A stretch of DNA of 64,000 bases from Tenericutes bacterium HGW-Tenericutes-2 (GTDB lineage: Bacteria; Bacillota_I; Bacilli_A; Acholeplasmatales; Acholeplasmataceae), in assembly GCA_002839095.1 (NCBI GenBank), contig PGXL01000007.1:1-64000 (forward strand). The letters are read 5' to 3'. The notes beneath the pieces were generated by a model, which was not told the origin of the DNA, ran no database searches, and saw only the letters and a program-made list of their open reading frames with translations. Shown here in pieces: positions 3,021 through 41,393 of the stretch. How positions within the stretch are numbered: position 1 is the first letter of the stretch; every line of letters begins with the position of its first letter. A program made the position numbers and the translations under genes.

Positions 3021-4721
3021 ATGACGAAAAAATGGTGGATGGAATCTGTTGGATATCAGATTTATCCCAAAAGTTTTTATGACAGTAATGATGATGGCAT
3101 CGGTGATCTTAATGGCATATATGAAAAGCTGGATTATCTCGCTTTATTAGGAGTTAATCTCGTCTGGATTTGCCCATTCTATGATTCTCCGATGGACGAC
3201 AACGGTTATGATGTTCGTAACTTTTTTGATGTCTCTAAAGAGTTTGGTACGATGGATGATGTCAAAAAATTAATAGCACGTGCTAAGGAGCTTGGAATTA
3301 AAATTGTTTTAGACTTTGTCTTAAATCATACATCCGATGAGCATCCATGGTTTGTTGAATCCAAATCCACTAAGGATAATCCTTATAGAGATTACTATAT
3401 TTGGCATGATGGAAGAATTGTTGATGGCGTCAAGGTTGAGCCTACAAACTGGGGTTCATTTTTTGGTGGAAGTGCGTGGAATTATGATGAAACAACCGAC
3501 AGCTATTACATGAAAATCTTTTCAAACAAAATGCCTGATTTAAATTGGAAGAACGAAAAGGTTCAACAGGAAATGATTGAAATAGCGAAAAAATGGTTAG
3601 ACCTTGGAATTGATGGATTTAGAATCGATGCTGTATCTCATTTGGATCGAGATGAGTTCATTGATGCAAAGGCAAATGAGGGTGAAAAATATCCTCTCGA
3701 TTGGAACAAGTTTTCTAATCTTCCCAAAGTGCATGATTACTTAAAATTATTAAACAAGGAAGTTTTTTCTAAATATGAATGTCTTACCATCGGTGAGGTT
3801 GGAGGAGCTGCATCTATAGATCAAGGAATCAAATATGCAGCATTTGATTCAAATGAGTTATCCATGGTATTCAACTTTGACCACAACTGGTGTAATAATC
3901 TACATGAAGTAACAAACCCTAAGAAATTAAAAACTAATGTTTTAGCCTTAAAAAAAGTATTTAATAGCTGGCAGGAATCCTTTAAGGATATTGGTTGGCT
4001 CCCTCTTAATTGGCTTAATCATGATCAGCCTAGATTAATGAGCCAATATGGAAGCTATAAATATCCACTTGCATCTGGCAAGATGCTAGCCACAGCTCTT
4101 CACATGATGCGTGGAACTCCCTTTATCTATCAGGGTGAAGAAATAGGAATGACTAATTTCCCATTTGAAGATGTCACTCAGTTCAATGACATTTCTAGCA
4201 AGAGTGCATATAACTATCATCTTGAAAAGGAACCTGATGACCCAGTCAAAGCTTTAAAGAAGGCAGCACTTCGATCAAGAGATAATCCTAGAACTCCGAT
4301 GCAGTGGTCAAAGGAGCCAAATGCAGGATTTTCAATTGTTGACCCTTGGATGTATGTGAATCCCAATTATAAAAAAATCAATGTTGAGAAAAATCTAAGC
4401 AATGAAAATTCGTTATGGTATCATTATCAAAAGTTGATTGATTTAAGAAAAAATAGTATTTACAGTAGTACAATTATTTATGGAACCTACAAGCAAATCG
4501 ATTTAGAGGATGAAAATCATTATTCTTATCTAAGAAAAGACTCAAGTCACACACTTTTAGTCATTAATTCTTTTTCAACAAAGAAGACAAACTACGATTT
4601 AAGTCCATACGATATAGTAGAGGTTTTAATTTCCAATTATAAAAAAATAAGCATTAAAGAAAACAAACTGACATTAAAACCTTTTGAATCGATAGTGTTC
4701 AAGGTTGAGGAGAAATCATGA
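3021..4721 (+). CDS. malL: GH13 oligo-1,6-glucosidase / alpha-glucosidase
   Basis: A 566-residue cytoplasmic exo-acting alpha-glucosidase of the GH13_23/31 type, releasing glucose from isomaltose, maltose or short dextrins. The N-terminus (WWMESVGYQIYPKSFYD) and the four conserved regions are intact: nucleophile D203 in FRIDAV, acid/base E259 in LTIGEVGG, and D335 in WLNHDQ. Length matches the family. The ATG follows AAAGGAG at good spacing. Its stop overlaps malQ by ATGA, so the two are co-translated. Trehalose-6-phosphate hydrolase or dextran glucosidase activity cannot be ruled out from sequence alone; no PTS gene is nearby, which argues against the phosphate-sugar option. Confidence 0.88.
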   Translation: MTKKWWMESVGYQIYPKSFYDSNDDGIGDLNGIYEKLDYLALLGVNLVWICPFYDSPMDDNGYDVRNFFDVSKEFGTMDDVKKLIARAKELGIKIVLDFVLNHTSDEHPWFVESKSTKDNPYRDYYIWHDGRIVDGVKVEPTNWGSFFGGSAWNYDETTDSYYMKIFSNKMPDLNWKNEKVQQEMIEIAKKWLDLGIDGFRIDAVSHLDRDEFIDAKANEGEKYPLDWNKFSNLPKVHDYLKLLNKEVFSKYECLTIGEVGGAASIDQGIKYAAFDSNELSMVFNFDHNWCNNLHEVTNPKKLKTNVLALKKVFNSWQESFKDIGWLPLNWLNHDQPRLMSQYGSYKYPLASGKMLATALHMMRGTPFIYQGEEIGMTNFPFEDVTQFNDISSKSAYNYHLEKEPDDPVKALKKAALRSRDNPRTPMQWSKEPNAGFSIVDPWMYVNPNYKKINVEKNLSNENSLWYHYQKLIDLRKNSIYSSTIIYGTYKQIDLEDENHYSYLRKDSSHTLLVINSFSTKKTNYDLSPYDIVEVLISNYKKISIKENKLTLKPFESIVFKVEEKS

Positions 4722-6208
4722 GAAGAAGTGGTGTATTACTTCACATTTCAAGCTTACCGAGCAATTATGGCATCGGAACCTTTGGAAAAGCAGCATATGA
4801 CTTTGTTGACTTCCTAAAGGAATCTGAACAAACATTTTGGCAAATATTACCCCTAGGTCCTACATCTTATGGAGATTCTCCATACCAAACGTTTTCTGCG
4901 TTTGCTAATAACCCTTATTTTATTGACCTGGATTTATTAATTGAACAAGGTTTACTTGATCCACATGAAATTGTAGCAACCTTTCATTCGCCAAGATATG
5001 TAGAATATAAAGAGCTTTATGATGAAAGATTTATCGTATTAAAGAAGGCGTTTCATCGTTTTGACACAAAAAACACTAAATTTCAAAAATTTATTAAAGA
5101 CAATCAAAATTGGCTTAATGATTATGCTTTATTTATGGCACTCAAGGTACATCATGGTGGAGAATCATGGTTAACATGGGAAAAAGAATTAAGACTTCGT
5201 GATGAAAATGCATTGACACACTACAAAAATCTTCTCAGTGAAGATGTTGAGTTTTATCAATTTTTACAATATGAAGCATATCAACAATGGTTTAATTTGA
5301 AGAAGTATGCAAATGCAAAGGGTATTGAGTTTGTTGGAGACATGCCTATCTATGTATCCTATGATTCAAGCGATGTTTGGGCGAATCCAAAATTCTTTGA
5401 TCTAGATCAGGATAGATTGCCGATTCATGTCGCAGGTGTTCCACCAGATAACTTCTCTAAGGATGGACAATTATGGGGGAATCCTCTCTATGATTGGAAG
5501 CAATTAGAAAAGGAAGATTTCAATTGGTGGGTTGAAAGAATTTCTCAAGCAGTTCATGCATTTGATTGGATTCGTATTGATCATTTCATCGGATTCCAAA
5601 ATTTCTATTCTATCCCATATGGGCATTTAACAGCTGCTAAGGGTGAATGGAAAAAGGGTCCTGGCATTAAACTATTTGAAGTAATTAAGGAAAAATTAGG
5701 ATGTGTGAATATTATTGCTGAGGATTTAGGAGTCATTACAGATGATGTTAGAAAGCTATTAAAAGCAACAGGATTCCCTGGAATGAAGCTCTTGCAGTTC
5801 GCGTTTGACTCAAGAGAAGAAAGTGATTATATTCCTCATCTTTATACTAAGAACTCAATTGCTTATACTGGAACACATGACAACGAAACCACACAAACAT
5901 GGTTTACAAAGCTCCCTAAAAAGGATTTAGAATATTGCTTAAATTATATCAATCATTCAGGTAATCAAAGCCCTGTAGATAGCCTTATTAAAGCAACCCT
6001 AGCATGCATAGCTGATACAGCAATTATTCCGATGCAAGACTATTTAGGACTTGGAGATGAGGGTAGAATGAACATCCCATCAACAACCGGTAATAACTGG
6101 AAGTGGAGAATGCTACCTAATGAAATGAATAAGGACTTGCTAATTAAGATGAAATCATTTACACTATTATATGGTAGAGGTCAATCAAAACATAAGAAGG
6201 GTAGTTAA
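4718..6208 (+). CDS. malQ: 4-alpha-glucanotransferase (amylomaltase, GH77)
   Basis: This 496-residue enzyme transfers alpha-1,4-glucan segments between maltodextrins, releasing glucose and making longer chains that other enzymes can degrade. GH77 hallmarks are present: ILPLGPTSYGDSPYQ near the N-terminus, RIDHFIGF (nucleophile Asp), AEDLGVI (acid/base Glu) and THDNETTQTW. Its length is typical of the short bacterial class. It begins inside the stop of the upstream alpha-glucosidase (4-bp overlap) and is followed 26 bp later by the GH5 gene, so the three form one operon. Together with the two GH13 enzymes it gives a full intracellular maltodextrin route. Confidence 0.95.
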   Translation: MRRSGVLLHISSLPSNYGIGTFGKAAYDFVDFLKESEQTFWQILPLGPTSYGDSPYQTFSAFANNPYFIDLDLLIEQGLLDPHEIVATFHSPRYVEYKELYDERFIVLKKAFHRFDTKNTKFQKFIKDNQNWLNDYALFMALKVHHGGESWLTWEKELRLRDENALTHYKNLLSEDVEFYQFLQYEAYQQWFNLKKYANAKGIEFVGDMPIYVSYDSSDVWANPKFFDLDQDRLPIHVAGVPPDNFSKDGQLWGNPLYDWKQLEKEDFNWWVERISQAVHAFDWIRIDHFIGFQNFYSIPYGHLTAAKGEWKKGPGIKLFEVIKEKLGCVNIIAEDLGVITDDVRKLLKATGFPGMKLLQFAFDSREESDYIPHLYTKNSIAYTGTHDNETTQTWFTKLPKKDLEYCLNYINHSGNQSPVDSLIKATLACIADTAIIPMQDYLGLGDEGRMNIPSTTGNNWKWRMLPNEMNKDLLIKMKSFTLLYGRGQSKHKKGS

Positions 6209-10222: not shown

Positions 10223-10255
10223 TACCAATAAAAAGGGTACCTATTTTGTATATTA
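10223..10255 (+). promoter_or_regulatory. Putative ECF-sigma autoregulated promoter, copy 1
   Basis: The block TACCAATAAAAA, then a TTTGTA(T/C)ATTA box 22 bases after its start, recurs in the same spacing at 11903. Here it ends 16 bases before the ECF sigma start codon. It does not look like a sigma-A promoter. The spacing of the two blocks fits ECF -35/-10 elements, so the sigma factor probably drives its own operon. This is inferred from the repeat, not from a known consensus. Confidence 0.7.
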
Positions 10256-10271
10256 TGCGTAAGGGGAACTT

Positions 10272-10784
10272 ATGGACAACATTCATTTGATTATCAGAGA
10301 GCTCAAACAAAAGAACTATCAATCATTTGATACTTTTTATAACTTGACAAAAAATCAGGTTTTTTATGCCATCATTTCTGTTGTTAAAGATAATGATTTG
10401 GCACAAGATATCATGCAAGATACCTATGTGAAGTTCCTAGAAAAAATTGATCAGTATAAAGATGGAGCAAACCCCTATGCATATCTTTCAACTATTGCTA
10501 GAAACTTGGCAATTAATACCTACAATCAAAGAAAACGTGAAGTATACTCTGAAGAGATATTCGAAACAATACCTTCACCAGAAGAAAATAATGACGAAGA
10601 GGATATCTTCAAGATACTCGATCTCCTCGATCCAGATGAAAGAGAAGTCGTAACACTTCATATCATCAATAATCTCAAATTTAGAGAAATCGTTCCAATC
10701 GTAGATAAACCATTAGGTACAGTGTTATGGATATATAATAAAGCAATTAAAAAATTAAAAGAAAAGGTAGGTGACATTCTATGA
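10272..10784 (+). CDS. ECF-type RNA polymerase sigma factor
   Basis: A 170-residue sigma-70-family factor with only regions 2 and 4. Region 2 (about 10-75) includes DNDLAQDIMQDTYVKFLEKI, which contacts core polymerase and the -10 box. Region 4 (about 110-165) is a helix-turn-helix around EREVVTLHIINNLKFREI. An acidic linker (EENNDEEDI) joins them. AAGGGG precedes the ATG. It overlaps the next gene by ATGA, the usual sigma/anti-sigma arrangement. Upstream and in front of the lipoprotein gene lies the same promoter-like motif, suggesting self-control. I cannot assign it to a numbered ECF group. Confidence 0.93.
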   Translation: MDNIHLIIRELKQKNYQSFDTFYNLTKNQVFYAIISVVKDNDLAQDIMQDTYVKFLEKIDQYKDGANPYAYLSTIARNLAINTYNQRKREVYSEEIFETIPSPEENNDEEDIFKILDLLDPDEREVVTLHIINNLKFREIVPIVDKPLGTVLWIYNKAIKKLKEKVGDIL

Positions 10785-11887
10785 AGAAAAAAGAACTAAT
10801 CAGACTTATCCAAACTAAATCAAGAGAAGTAGAAATCAAGGATTTTTCAAGTTCTATTTTAGAAAGAGTCAAAAATCTACCTCAAAAAGAAGTGATTGAA
10901 GCACCAAAGCGTGTGTTTAGACTTAAACCTATATTGTTTGCAACACTAGGTACGCTCGCGTCCGTTCTATTATTTATGGTTTTATATAACCCGGCATCAC
11001 CTATTATTCCAACGGACCCAATCACTCCATCACTTCAAAATATGGATGAAGTCATTGCGCTTTCTACAGTATCTACAGCATCCTTAGTTGAGACATTTGA
11101 TGCTGAACTATCAATTAATGACAGTTATACACTTAGCTTTGGTAATCCACAAGATACTCAAAGAATACGTGATGAAATTAAAGATGTAACCAAATACATG
11201 GAAACCATCGAAAAGCTATTTGCTAGTGAAAGCAATTTTAATCTCCAAAAAGAAAATATTACTGCAGGACCATTCACGAATCGTATGAACTTTAAAACTA
11301 AAGACCTATTAGGTCAAGAGGCTAGCTACAAATTTGACTATAGTCAAGTCGCTTTAGCTAATCCAAAGCACTTTAATCTTGATGGTGAGCTTGAAATTGG
11401 TGAAAAAATATATCATATTACAGGTAAAGCAGAAACAGACATGAATCAATTGATGTTAAAGGCAGAAAAGGATAGTTCAAATTATATTTTGATAAATTAT
11501 CAGCTGAACCAATCGATTCACCAATTTACAGTAGAAATTGTTAAAAATGATGAAACCATTCAAAAGGTTCAATTTGATCTTGAACAATCTGAAACTAGTA
11601 AAAAGATTAATTTACAGTTTATTGAAGGTGAATCCATAGGCACATATGAATTCCAAATTGAAGAAAATGATAATGTAAAAATTATTAAAGCTAAATATCA
11701 TATCGTATTTGATGAAGAAGAGGAAAAGGGAGAGTTTATATTAAGAGTATTAACTATACAAAATAAGACAACCTATTCTATATTAATAAAGCCGGAAGGG
11801 AAACCACCATTCATTATTACTCAAAATAGAGTCATGACGGAAAGAAGACCTGGATTTCAGACATCACTAGAAAATGTGAATTTGTAA
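10781..11887 (+). CDS. Single-pass membrane protein in anti-sigma position
   Basis: A 368-residue protein with a basic cytoplasmic segment (1-48), one membrane helix (about 49-69, ILFATLGTLASVLLFMVLYN) and about 300 residues outside. It starts inside the ECF sigma stop codon (ATGA), so the two are made together. The topology and coupling are those of an ECF anti-sigma factor, although no zinc-binding anti-sigma motif (HxxxCxxC) is present and I do not recognise the outer domain, which is rich in beta-strand-like segments and charged residues. The inside segment is short for sigma-factor binding but sufficient in some families. It would hold the sigma factor until an outside signal arrives. 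That role is inferred. Confidence 0.7.
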   Translation: MKKKELIRLIQTKSREVEIKDFSSSILERVKNLPQKEVIEAPKRVFRLKPILFATLGTLASVLLFMVLYNPASPIIPTDPITPSLQNMDEVIALSTVSTASLVETFDAELSINDSYTLSFGNPQDTQRIRDEIKDVTKYMETIEKLFASESNFNLQKENITAGPFTNRMNFKTKDLLGQEASYKFDYSQVALANPKHFNLDGELEIGEKIYHITGKAETDMNQLMLKAEKDSSNYILINYQLNQSIHQFTVEIVKNDETIQKVQFDLEQSETSKKINLQFIEGESIGTYEFQIEENDNVKIIKAKYHIVFDEEEEKGEFILRVLTIQNKTTYSILIKPEGKPPFIITQNRVMTERRPGFQTSLENVNL

Positions 11888-11902
11888 CATAATTTCATAA
11901 AG

Positions 11903-11935
11903 TACCAATAAAAATGGATCCTTCTTTGTACATTA
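11903..11935 (+). promoter_or_regulatory. Putative ECF-sigma promoter, copy 2
   Basis: This matches copy 1 at 10223 through TACCAATAAAAA, a shared GG, CCT, then TTTGTA and ATTA, all in the same register. It lies 24 bases before the lipoprotein start. Finding the motif before both units ties the lipoprotein to the sigma factor's regulon. Confidence 0.7.
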
Positions 11936-11958
11936 AGTGTATAAAGGAGGATTTAAAA

Positions 11959-12993
11959 ATGAAAAAAGTTAAATTAGTTTTAAGTTTTGCATTTATTTTA
12001 TTCGCAGCCGTTGCGATTGTTGGGTGTGCAAGTTCTGTATCAGCCAATGATACATACGTTACATTAGATATCAATCCAAGTGTAGAATTAATTGTCACAC
12101 CAAAAGAAAAGGTTATTTATGCTAATCCACTCAATGAAGATGCTGAAGTGCTATTAGTAGATCTAAACTTAGTTGGTCTTGATTTAGATGTTGCTATTCA
12201 AATGATTATTGATACAGCAATTGAATTAGGCTACATTGATGTAGATTCAGAAGAAACAATCGTTTCAGTCACTGCAATATCTAAGGATTCTGCAATTGGT
12301 GAAAAGATTAGAGAACAAGTTAAAGCACATATCAATAATGAATTTAAAGATCGTGCATTAATGGGTCGTGCTGAAGACAAAGGATTTACACCTGACTTTT
12401 TAGTAGAAGCAGAAGCTTATGGAGTTACTCCAGGGTTCCTATTCATGGCTAAATCAGTTGTAGTTGTTAATGATGAAGTTTTATTAGAAGATGCATTACA
12501 AATGACAGTACCTGAACTACAAGCTATTCTTAGAGAAGCTAAAGAAGCTCAAAAAGAAGTAGTATCAGCACTTAGAGAAGAATTCTTAGCTGCAAGAGCA
12601 CTTATATTTGATGAATACATTCCTCAAATTCAAGCACTTGAAACAGACCTAGAAGCAAATGCTGAAGTTATTGCAGCTCTTGAAGTTGAACTTGCTGAAG
12701 CTGAAGAAGCTGACAAAGCAGCAATTCAAGCTGAACTTGATCTTGCACTAGAAGCAAAAGCAACACTTGAAGCAGATCTAGAAGCATTAGTAACAGTATT
12801 CCATGAAGAATTTAAAGCACTACGTGATGAATTTCATGCACAATCAGTAGTACTAAGAGCAGAAATTAGAGAAATGAACCAACATAGAAAAGAAGTTAAT
12901 CAAGCAAAGGTTCAAGAATTTCTAAACCAAATGCAAGAACGTAGACAAGAATTAAAAGAAGCAATTGACCAGTTTCAAAAATTACGCCCATAA
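11959..12993 (+). CDS. Lipoprotein with RsgI-like autoproteolysis domain and coiled coil
   Basis: A 344-residue probable lipoprotein. The signal peptide ends in IVGC, with the lipid cysteine at residue 23. Next comes a domain that reads like the periplasmic part of RsgI anti-sigma-I factors (YVTLDINPSVEL at 33-44, then ALNEDA-type residues and a helical stretch ending LGYIDVD). In RsgI the Asn-Pro of this motif (here N39-P40) is where the protein cleaves itself. From about residue 180 to the end the chain is a long, charged, Ala/Glu-rich coiled coil. RsgI's cytoplasmic sigma-binding part and membrane helix are absent. The start at 11959 follows AAAGGAGG by 8 bases; an earlier in-frame ATG would overlap the promoter motif. 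It is probably a surface sensor or target of the adjacent sigma factor. Confidence 0.75.
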   Translation: MKKVKLVLSFAFILFAAVAIVGCASSVSANDTYVTLDINPSVELIVTPKEKVIYANPLNEDAEVLLVDLNLVGLDLDVAIQMIIDTAIELGYIDVDSEETIVSVTAISKDSAIGEKIREQVKAHINNEFKDRALMGRAEDKGFTPDFLVEAEAYGVTPGFLFMAKSVVVVNDEVLLEDALQMTVPELQAILREAKEAQKEVVSALREEFLAARALIFDEYIPQIQALETDLEANAEVIAALEVELAEAEEADKAAIQAELDLALEAKATLEADLEALVTVFHEEFKALRDEFHAQSVVLRAEIREMNQHRKEVNQAKVQEFLNQMQERRQELKEAIDQFQKLRP

Positions 12994-37814: not shown

Positions 37815-38016
37815 GCAGGATTGATAGAATTATTGATGATTTTTCATATTTTTTTCATCTTTATTTCCGATTATATCAGCTCAAATGTTAGGATGAACTA
37901 TAATCTCAATTTATATATTTGGAATGAGTTACTTTGAATCCTATGAATTAGGAATAACTAAAAAGTTATAGTATAATTTAATTAGAGCATATCATCAAAG
38001 AAGGGGAGTGAGCAGT

Positions 38017-39495
38017 GTGAATATTTTAGCAGAAAAATTTAGGGATAATATTATTGCTGTTGTTCCAATCACATTGATCGTAATCATATTGAATTTCACA
38101 ATTGTTCCCTTATCAACTCCTTTTTTAATTCGTTTTATTATAGGCTCTATTTTAGTCATCATCGGACTTTCTTTATTTCTCGTTGGTGTCGATCTTGGAA
38201 TCACACCACTTGGAAGTCATACAGGTGCTACTTTAACTAAGACAAACAAATTAGTAATTGTCCTAATCGCTGGTTTTGTTTTAGGCTTTTTTATATCGGT
38301 TGCTGAACCAGGACTACTTGTTTTTTCGAATCAGGTTGATTTTGTCACCCAAGGTGATATATCATCAATCAGCATTTTAATTAGTGTATCCATAGGATTA
38401 GCAATTATGATTGGATTAGGCTTTATTCGTATTATCTATAACCTACCGCTGTACAGAATTCTACTTGTTCTATATTTAATCATATTCGTTTTAGCATTTT
38501 TTACATCACCAGAATTTCTAGCAATCTCATTTGATGCATCAGGTGCGACAACTGGAGTGCTTGCAGTACCTTTCTTGCTTGCCCTATCAGTTGGTATCAC
38601 AAAAATGAAAAAGGATAGCAAATCTTCCGAAAAGGATAGCTTTGGTCTCGTATCCATCGCATCAACTGGGGCTATTATTTCTTTAATGATCCTTAGTTTT
38701 TTTAACAGAAATTTAGACTTTGCAGCACACATTCCTGAGGAAATCACTGAGTCTACACAAATCTTAAACCCATTTATATCTATACTTTCATCAGTCTTTC
38801 AAGAAAGCTTTTTAGCCTTAGTACCGCTTTTAATCATTTTATTCATTTTACAAGTTCTATTTTTCAAACTAACAAAAAGAGCTTTTATTAGAATTCTTAA
38901 GGGCTTTGTTTATTCATTAATCGGCTTATTCATCTTTCTTGTCGGTGTGAATGCAGGATTTATGGAGGTTGGCTCTAAAATTGGATATACCTTAGCACTT
39001 TTAGATCATAAAATATTTATTCTTTTGATTGCATTTCTATTAGGGCTATTCACAATAGCAGCTGAGCCTGCAGTATCGGTGCTAACACATCAAATTGAGG
39101 ATATCACATCAGGTTATGTGAAGAAAAAAGCTGTTCTAATACCCTTATCCATTGGCGTCGGATTTGCAATTACACTTTCCATCCTAAGAATAATGATTCC
39201 TTCCCTGCAGTTATGGCACTTATTATTACCAGGCTATATAATCTCATTAGCTTTAATGTTTATTGTTCCCAAACTGTTCGTAGGTATTGCATTTGATGCA
39301 GGTGGAGTTGCCACAGGTCCAATGACAGCAACCTTCATTCTTGCATTCACAACGGGAGCAGCCAATGCGACTCCAGGTGCGAATGTATTACTTGATGGGT
39401 TTGGAATGATAGCCTTAGTAGCACTTGCACCAATTATCACATTACAATTGTTAGGACTCATCTTTAAAGTCAGATCGAGAAAAGGAGGTGTCTAG
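38017..39495 (+). CDS. DUF1538 membrane protein, two homologous halves
   Basis: A 492-residue protein with about twelve membrane helices in two related halves (about 1-205 and 230-492). Each half carries the same pair of motifs: an AEP motif followed by HQ or NQ in a membrane helix (VAEPGLLVFSNQVD and AAEPAVSVLTHQIE), and a FDA-G-TG motif (FDASGATTG and FDAGGVATG). This is the DUF1538 family, whose function is unknown but which looks like a transporter. I start at GTG 38017, eight bases after AAGGGGAG. A TATAAT is at 37972-37977. A tandem PII gene follows after one base, and PII proteins often gate transporters. Confidence 0.85.
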   Translation: MNILAEKFRDNIIAVVPITLIVIILNFTIVPLSTPFLIRFIIGSILVIIGLSLFLVGVDLGITPLGSHTGATLTKTNKLVIVLIAGFVLGFFISVAEPGLLVFSNQVDFVTQGDISSISILISVSIGLAIMIGLGFIRIIYNLPLYRILLVLYLIIFVLAFFTSPEFLAISFDASGATTGVLAVPFLLALSVGITKMKKDSKSSEKDSFGLVSIASTGAIISLMILSFFNRNLDFAAHIPEEITESTQILNPFISILSSVFQESFLALVPLLIILFILQVLFFKLTKRAFIRILKGFVYSLIGLFIFLVGVNAGFMEVGSKIGYTLALLDHKIFILLIAFLLGLFTIAAEPAVSVLTHQIEDITSGYVKKKAVLIPLSIGVGFAITLSILRIMIPSLQLWHLLLPGYIISLALMFIVPKLFVGIAFDAGGVATGPMTATFILAFTTGAANATPGANVLLDGFGMIALVALAPIITLQLLGLIFKVRSRKGGV

Positions 39496-39496
39496 G

Positions 39497-40162
39497 ATGG
39501 AAAATATATCGATGCTATCAAATTTTGAATTACTTTGTGTAATCGTCAATTATGGTATAGGAAGTAAAGTACTAAAGTATGCAAAAGAAGAAGGTATTAA
39601 AGGTGGTACTATTATCTTAGGTAAAGGTACATATAAAAGACCACTACTTGAGTTCTTAGAACTTACAGAAACTAGAAAAGAAATGGTTTTAATGATTGCT
39701 GATAGAAGAATTATCAATCCTGCTCTAGAAGCATTAAATGAGAGATTAAAGTTATATAAACCACATCATGGTATTGCTTTTGTAATACCAGTAACACAGT
39801 TTTTAGGTGCTGGAAAATATGAATATGATCCAAAAAATGAAATTGGAGGTCATAACGTGACTGAATATAATGCAATATTTACAATAGTAGACAAGGGATT
39901 TGGTGAAAAGGTTGTTGATGCAGCAACTCTTGTTGGTGCTAAAGGTGCAACCATCATCAATGCCAGAGGCTCAGGAATTCATGAGACCAGCAAGTTATTT
40001 TCCATGGAAATTGAACCTGAAAAGGAAATTGTTTTAATTCTTGCAGAAAAAACAATCGTCAAACCGATTATCAACTCTATATGTGAAGAGCTTGATATTG
40101 AACAACCAGGTAATGGAGTTATTTTTGTTCAGGAAGTTCATCAAACCTATGGCATTAGATAA
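39497..40162 (+). CDS. Tandem PII-like (GlnB-fold) regulatory protein
   Basis: A 221-residue protein made of two PII-like domains joined head to tail (about 1-112 and 118-221). Each shows the ferredoxin-like pattern and a glycine-rich nucleotide loop: EGIKGGTIILGKGTYK in the first, VGAKGATIINARGSGIHE in the second, each with an ALIADK/LILAEK-type strand (MIADRRI, ILAEKTI). The usual T-loop uridylylation tyrosine is not seen. AAAGGAGG precedes ATG 39497; it begins one base after the DUF1538 stop. By analogy with GlnK-AmtB it should bind nucleotides and control the DUF1538 protein. That role is inference. Confidence 0.8.
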   Translation: MENISMLSNFELLCVIVNYGIGSKVLKYAKEEGIKGGTIILGKGTYKRPLLEFLELTETRKEMVLMIADRRIINPALEALNERLKLYKPHHGIAFVIPVTQFLGAGKYEYDPKNEIGGHNVTEYNAIFTIVDKGFGEKVVDAATLVGAKGATIINARGSGIHETSKLFSMEIEPEKEIVLILAEKTIVKPIINSICEELDIEQPGNGVIFVQEVHQTYGIR

Positions 40163-41393
40163 AAAGGCTAGAAAAAGAAAATTAAGACTCATTCCTATTC
40201 TTGTTTTAGCTGTAATTATTTCCTATTTCTACTTAGGATTTTTTCAGTTCAGTAATTGGCTAAATTTCAGTGATATTCAATCATCTTTATCAATCTTAGA
40301 TTATATGTTATGGTTCTTTATAACCTTTTATCTATCATTAACCATTCATGAGCTAGGTCACTTTTTTTCCTTCGTTTTTCAAAAGGTTAAGCTAAGAGCT
40401 TTATACATTACAATCTTTGTATTTCATAAAACAATCAAAGGCTGGAGATTTGCGATTAAGCCAAAGCTGATTGTATTACTTGGAGGACTAGTTGTTCCAG
40501 ACTTTGGTGATGTGAAAAATGAGGAAGAATATAATAAAGTTGTGAACAAGTTTTCTAAAGCCTTGATTGCTGCACCTATTGTAACAATTTGCTTTTTAAC
40601 TATTACAATCATTACCTTCATCTTATTAATAGCTTTAGTTCCGAATACACCTTGGTTAGGCATTTCATTTATGATCATGCTATTTGCAATCCCTATCAAT
40701 CTTTTATTTATATATTCCTTTACACTTTCTAATCCAATGTTTTATGGGGATTTTGTAGCATATAAGAAAATAAAGACAGATGCGATTTTTGCTTTATCGA
40801 TGATTATTCAATACTCGATATTTACCTTAAATGATTCAGAAGAATCTGATCATTTTCTGTGGGAGAAATCTAGAAATATCTTAAAAGAAATTCAGATTAG
40901 TTCTTCACAATTTCATACAATGATTTTACTCAATTACATGGATGGAATTATTAGAAGAGATGAAAAATTTGATCACGAAGTCGATATAAAAATTAATCGA
41001 ATTCCAATACGCAAGTATCTTAAAAATGAACAAGGATTAAATTTAGTATATGATATAGCATGCTACCACTACTTTAATGGAAATGTCGATAGAGCATATA
41101 AGCTTTATGACGATATCCAAAAGCTAGTAAGTGATAAGCTCGATGAAAAAATGCTTAGCTATTACAAAAATAAATATATGCACATCTTAAATATCGAATA
41201 TCAGGATCAATTCCTTTCAAACAAAAATAATTATTATATTGGAAATAATTGGATATTTGATATACTAGTTGATCCATATGAAATGCTAAAGGCACATCAT
41301 GAAAAACTACCTTTTAGAGAGTATAGTACTCCAGTTCAAATTCAAGAAATTGAAGTATTAAATGAAGAGGAACAAAAAAGCGACTCAGATTAG
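40149..41393 (+). CDS. M50-type membrane metalloprotease-like protein
   Basis: A 414-residue membrane protein. A zinc-protease motif HELGHF lies in a membrane helix (near residue 68-73), with a second possible metal element NPMFYGDF further on (near 200), as in site-2 proteases. About six helices fill residues 20-215; the rest is a soluble helical domain of about 200 residues. I start at ATG 40149, giving a 14-bp overlap with the PII gene, so it is part of that operon; an earlier ATG would translate PII coding sequence in another frame. Substrate is unknown. It could process the membrane partner or a regulator. Confidence 0.72.
   Translation: MALDKKARKRKLRLIPILVLAVIISYFYLGFFQFSNWLNFSDIQSSLSILDYMLWFFITFYLSLTIHELGHFFSFVFQKVKLRALYITIFVFHKTIKGWRFAIKPKLIVLLGGLVVPDFGDVKNEEEYNKVVNKFSKALIAAPIVTICFLTITIITFILLIALVPNTPWLGISFMIMLFAIPINLLFIYSFTLSNPMFYGDFVAYKKIKTDAIFALSMIIQYSIFTLNDSEESDHFLWEKSRNILKEIQISSSQFHTMILLNYMDGIIRRDEKFDHEVDIKINRIPIRKYLKNEQGLNLVYDIACYHYFNGNVDRAYKLYDDIQKLVSDKLDEKMLSYYKNKYMHILNIEYQDQFLSNKNNYYIGNNWIFDILVDPYEMLKAHHEKLPFREYSTPVQIQEIEVLNEEEQKSDSD

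Follow-up and report, generated by a model that had tools for sequence, protein, structure and literature searches.

A conserved module of an ECF sigma factor, a putative membrane anti-sigma factor and a SEAL-domain lipoprotein in Acholeplasmataceae

Results

We have examined three adjacent genes on the forward strand of the window, a 64,000-nucleotide stretch of DNA from Tenericutes bacterium HGW-Tenericutes-2 that forms part of a 2.3 Mb genome. Downstream of leuS lie, in this order, genes for an ECF sigma factor of 170 aa (10272-10784), a putative membrane anti-sigma factor of 368 aa (10781-11887) and a SEAL (RsgI_M) lipoprotein of 344 aa (11959-12993). That the first of these is an ECF sigma factor, as a preliminary description of this DNA had proposed, is borne out by its orthologs and by profile matches: in Pfam it matches Sigma70_r2 (1e-11) and, slightly under the Pfam cut-off, Sigma70_r4 (1.5e-4), and it scores 70 bits against the NCBIfam sigma70-ECF model TIGR02937, over that model's own cut-off of 42.9. 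The protein is short and contains sigma regions 2 and 4 only, as expected of an ECF factor. The start codon of the membrane-protein gene lies inside the stop of the sigma gene, in an ATGA overlap at 10781-10784, and the coupling of the two genes described earlier thus stands. We set the start of the lipoprotein gene at the ATG at 11959 because a ribosome-binding site directly precedes it; a longer, mechanically called open reading frame begins at 11914.

The membrane protein was assigned from the ATGA overlap, the family alignment, an AF2 model (pLDDT 76) and its co-occurrence with the lipoprotein. Sequence and model agree on cytoplasmic residues 1-48, one transmembrane helix (50-68) and a beta-rich ectodomain at about 86-349, which is the single-pass protein with a large outer part that had been described. 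Taken together, the Lys/Arg-rich N-terminus, the helix and the ATGA overlap give the layout of an N-in, single-pass, co-translated anti-sigma factor. The protein matched no family in Pfam or NCBIfam, and hence no recognised anti-sigma family among them; RsgI_M gave no match in it at E values up to 1 (Pfam), and RsgI_N was found in neither the membrane protein nor the lipoprotein at E values up to 1 (Pfam, NCBIfam). A direct search with a profile of the family's membrane protein missed the SEAL anti-sigma factors described below, and only a profile-profile comparison of the N-termini matched them: the N-terminal cytoplasmic segment (10781-10924, forward strand) aligned in hhalign with a probability of 81.8 over 46 aa, compared with 9.4 for the reversed control, and with 96.6 once the transmembrane part was added. 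On the strength of the gene coupling and of this weak, short profile similarity, we regard the 48-residue N-terminus as the putative sigma-binding part. We claim no fold for the ectodomain, because a fold search (best VIA Z 7.9, with unrelated folds tied) and a Foldseek search (best E 0.017) returned nothing better than tied, low-scoring beta structures, and when solved structures were searched by sequence profile the ectodomain had chance-level matches only. The genome encodes an RseP-like site-2 protease (Peptidase_M50, 211 bits; G000:C47:1021-2514). We also note that genes for a DUF1538 protein, a P-II-like protein and a second Peptidase_M50-like protein adjoin one another at 38008-41393 of the window.

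The lipoprotein, whose lipobox cysteine is residue 23, contains the RsgI-type domain that had been attributed to it. PF23750 (RsgI_M) matches residues 32-161 (12052-12441, forward strand) at 2e-24 and 87 bits, over a cut-off of 25.3, and the AF2 model (pLDDT 86) superposes on 8t9n, the RsgI domain of B. subtilis, with a Z of 13.9 at 2.3 A over 106 residues. The motif DINPSVE places an Asn-Pro scissile motif between strands 32-37 and 41-46, with the predicted scissile bond at Asn39-Pro40 (12073-12078). In several solved structures of C. thermocellum RsgI the chain begins at the proline equivalent to Pro40, as expected after cleavage of the Asn-Pro bond in RsgI. From this motif and the model, the lipoprotein is predicted to be autoproteolytic at Asn39-Pro40. 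The NPS motif is retained in the canonical lipoproteins of the family apart from one ortholog with an insertion, in which Ser-Pro replaces Asn-Pro (L090, 2817-3866, reverse strand), and one homolog (L077) lacks the lipobox cysteine; cleavage and lipidation are therefore not universal. The model and the alignment further predict a long helical hairpin or coiled coil over residues 200-341 (12556-12981, forward strand). Apolipoprotein matches to this coiled coil were taken as generic helix matches. Most lipoproteins of the family end, after the hairpin, in Arg-Pro (12985-12990 in the window).

RsgI_M is present in 34 of 88 Acholeplasmataceae genomes. In 33 of the 88, the source genome included, a canonical lipoprotein adjoins the membrane protein and neither occurs alone; the match in the 34th (G039) is no more than a fragment, located where a contig ends. 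The canonical loci of these 33 genomes show the order sigma factor, membrane protein, lipoprotein, with the sequence upstream of one of them (L062), where the ECF sigma gene would lie, falling beyond a contig end. Their membrane proteins share 21-78% identity with that of the window, and when the membrane-protein alignment was used as query, strong matches (about 226 bits and upwards) came from these 33 genomes and no others; those ranking next scored at most 177 bits and belong to a paralogous system. The three-gene order thus recurs among the relatives more than chance would allow, and on these comparisons the sigma factor, the membrane protein and the lipoprotein are one conserved module.

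The sigma and lipoprotein genes are both preceded by a block, TACCAATAAAAA...TTTGTA.ATTA, whose first position at the sigma gene, 10223, is where the preliminary description had the region begin. Within it we predict an ECF promoter for the sigma/anti-sigma operon, CCAATAAAA-N14-GTATATTA, with no mismatches and 16 nt before the start codon (10225-10255, forward strand), and another for the lipoprotein gene, CCAATAAAA-N14-GTACATTA, with one mismatch and 23 nt before the start codon (11905-11935, forward strand). With up to three mismatches allowed, the strict pattern has two sites in the source genome, those of the sigma and lipoprotein genes. Across the family we counted CCAATAAAA-N13..15-GTATATTA within four mismatches and took the expectation from shuffles: the promoter precedes the lipoprotein gene in 32 of 32 cases and the sigma gene in 28 of 31, where 2-3 would be expected, and the membrane-protein gene in 3 of 32, which is the chance level. 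At L077 the predicted promoters are near 3205-3240 and 4838-4870. The spacer was 14 in every site scored (24 of 24 for the lipoprotein, 22 of 22 for the sigma factor). Since the bases between the two promoter halves are not conserved, the match does not simply reflect shared ancestry.

A relaxed pattern found 64 sites in 33 relatives, against 9 for a reversed-pattern control; some relaxed sites (L126, L128, L132, L133), for which no downstream gene start was found, were counted as background. In the source genome the relaxed pattern, when held to 0-1 mismatch, yields one further site, before a subtilase gene (L101, G000:C7, motif at 1775), and secreted subtilisins or subtilases with Listeria-Bacteroides repeats lie behind the promoter in eleven genomes, this one included. 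The same promoter stands upstream of free-standing RsgI_M proteins, among them some that carry the domain three times. At L080, L082, L084, L085 and L178 the three RsgI_M domains are in tandem on proteins of 783-890 aa, and the Acholeplasmataceae examples of these have the ECF-type promoter in front. Also behind the promoter are exported DUF2202-like proteins (L108, L113, L114, L118 and L122, of which L114 was checked in Pfam) and a trypsin-like lipoprotein. Because the promoter precedes sigma, lipoprotein, stand-alone SEAL and subtilisin genes, the sigma factor probably drives its own gene along with a regulon of surface proteins, and the pattern matches the one to be expected of an autoregulated ECF regulon of this kind. 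The subtilase linked to this promoter could be an effector of the pathway or a protease acting on it.

The source genome contains a second ECF system (L093, G000:C36:41000-50000, 3065-5763). In this system, represented by 19 loci (L093 and 18 others, L198-L214 and L216), the order is lipoprotein, ECF sigma factor, anti-sigma factor, and the lipoprotein and its anti-sigma factor have their beta-rich ectodomain in common. The lipoprotein is preceded by a block resembling CCAATAAAA-N14/15-CGTTTATA, with the same -35 element and a different -10.

At the level of the order and class we sampled 48 loci, picked for holding RsgI_M. At 34 of the 48 an ECF sigma gene is directly followed by a gene for a membrane anti-sigma factor with an RsgI_M ectodomain, and 21 of these 34 also have an RsgI_M lipoprotein; the ten sigma factors that were checked are all ECF. 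Sister families within the order show the gene order ECF sigma factor, RsgI_M anti-sigma factor and then RsgI_M lipoprotein, and at several loci of the order and class a promoter-like block, read by eye, is common to the sigma and lipoprotein genes. In a tree of SEAL domains, many of whose forks are weakly supported, the SEAL of the window's lipoprotein groups with lipoprotein SEALs and apart from those of the anti-sigma factors, a clade of 19 lipoprotein rows having support of 93/93.

Discussion

These comparisons bear on how RsgI-type domains are deployed. The expectation in the preliminary description, that RsgI pairs with SigI and not with ECF factors, does not hold as a general rule given the ECF and SEAL anti-sigma pairs at 34 of the 48 sampled loci; judged from these sequences, pairing of RsgI-type domains with ECF sigma factors is common in this class. 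ECF-linked SEAL proteins may have been mentioned in earlier literature. The same description had the roles of RsgI split over two proteins, and part of this survives: the protein with the RsgI-type domain does not extend into the cytoplasm, and the putative sigma-binding segment belongs to a different protein. The lipoprotein itself is no detached half of RsgI. We rejected its derivation from a split RsgI on the grouping with lipoprotein SEALs in the tree, and that derivation is also disfavoured because SEAL lipoproteins accompany intact SEAL anti-sigma factors too. The simplest reading is that the anti-sigma factor of this family lost its RsgI_M ectodomain or exchanged it for a beta-rich one, and that the lipoprotein stayed.

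In RsgI/SigI, known from B. subtilis and C. thermocellum, a SEAL-domain anti-sigma factor undergoes autoproteolysis and cleavage by RseP/RasP. Autocleavage with separation of the first strand has been modelled as the first signalling step (PMC12203970). The window resembles that system in having a SEAL domain with an Asn-Pro site, a sigma/anti-sigma pair and an RseP-like protease encoded in the same genome. It differs in that its sigma factor is an ECF factor with Sigma70_r4 and not SigI, that RsgI_N is absent, that SEAL is carried by a separate lipoprotein and not by the anti-sigma factor, and that the organism is from a group without cell walls. Closer are the ECF and SEAL anti-sigma loci of the order and class, which share with the window an ECF sigma factor, an anti-sigma factor with a short N-terminus, one transmembrane helix and an ectodomain, an adjacent SEAL lipoprotein and, in several cases, sigma and lipoprotein promoters that are alike; their anti-sigma ectodomain is SEAL, whereas that of the window is beta-rich and unrelated. 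The second Acholeplasmataceae system likewise has an ECF sigma factor, the same beta ectodomain family on its anti-sigma factor and an ECF-type promoter before its lipoprotein, but the gene for this lipoprotein precedes the sigma gene, and its product carries the beta ectodomain where ours has SEAL. The module of the window may be described as a mixed case of these systems, in which the ECF sigma factor probably controls the lipoprotein partner of its anti-sigma factor, a partner that often shares the anti-sigma ectodomain. In E. coli, the operon of the RseA/RseB/sigma-E system encodes a membrane anti-sigma factor and, as a separate protein, its extracytoplasmic partner, and the system uses intramembrane proteolysis. 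RseB is not known as an autoproteolytic SEAL lipoprotein, and the likeness to our module is one of layout.

Sequence comparison supports the identity of the sigma factor, the coupling of the operon, a dedicated promoter, a SEAL fold with an Asn-Pro site and the strict co-occurrence of anti-sigma factor and lipoprotein. Going beyond these, we lean slightly towards an ECF sigma/anti-sigma switch in which the sigma factor would transcribe its own operon together with surface proteins and the SEAL lipoprotein would be a co-regulated signalling or feedback partner, a leaning that takes in the uncertainty of the inferred steps. The membrane protein would hold and inhibit the sigma factor through its N-terminus; an envelope signal would lead to intramembrane cleavage, helped by the encoded RseP-like protease, and to release of the sigma factor, which would then boost production of itself and of the surface proteins. 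The lipoprotein would cleave itself at Asn39-Pro40, leaving a 17-residue lipidated strand (residues 23-39) to which the remainder would be held non-covalently, by strand pairing only, and this detachable outer part may act on, or feed back to, the anti-sigma factor. We are doubtful of, but do entertain, a two-chain RsgI, in which the self-cleaving SEAL lipoprotein would act in trans on the ECF anti-sigma factor, with detachment of its outer part serving as a signal or as a feedback brake.

The lipoprotein might instead be a plain output, the sigma and anti-sigma factors being the whole switch and the SEAL lipoprotein its most constant effector, shed or detachable and without a signalling role. 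This is a substantial possibility, if short of an even one, and it is favoured because other regulon members share the promoter, namely stand-alone SEAL proteins, subtilases, DUF2202-like proteins and a trypsin-like lipoprotein; the lipoprotein gene, moreover, has its own promoter besides that of the operon. Yet the lipoprotein, unlike the other regulon members found, co-occurs perfectly with the anti-sigma factor, at a fixed adjacency, in 33 genomes, related ECF anti-sigma factors themselves carry SEAL, and the second ECF system too has a lipoprotein, which shares its anti-sigma factor's ectodomain. It is this strict co-occurrence, with the domain history, that leads us to favour a signalling or feedback partner.

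The identity of the promoter and the coherence of the module can be questioned as well. The motif might be an extended -10 promoter read by sigma-A, whose -35 region holds a conserved activator site. In A. laidlawii, promoters of sigma-A have been described with an EXT element TRTG, a -10 TAWAAT and a -35 TTGACA (PMC5138195), and the GTATATT of our -10 block resembles an extended sigma-A -10. We consider this quite improbable: the TTGACA box is absent, the spacer is fixed at 14 in the scored sites, the GT core is that of ECF -10 elements (PMC10575876), the genome has few copies of the motif, one of them ahead of the sigma gene itself, and in the paralogous ECF system this -35 is joined to another -10, CGTTTATA. 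To the null alternative raised in the preliminary description, that these are just neighbouring genes, we give almost no credence; the membrane protein is without a known anti-sigma domain by HMM, as that alternative would have it, but the conserved gene order, the strict co-occurrence and the shared promoter all speak against it.

Lastly, SEAL is widely tied to ECF sigma factors, and its placement here wholly on a lipoprotein offers a natural experiment on whether it needs to be on the same chain as the anti-sigma factor. Transcription start sites have been mapped in the laboratory species A. laidlawii (strain PG-8A), in a study whose main text leaves ECF factors unmentioned (PMC5138195), and for Acholeplasmataceae, apparently A. 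laidlawii included, our analysis now predicts a specific promoter and a regulon. If the two-chain RsgI is true, a sigma-controlled lipoprotein partner, often sharing the ectodomain of the anti-sigma factor, would be a general ECF design in this class.
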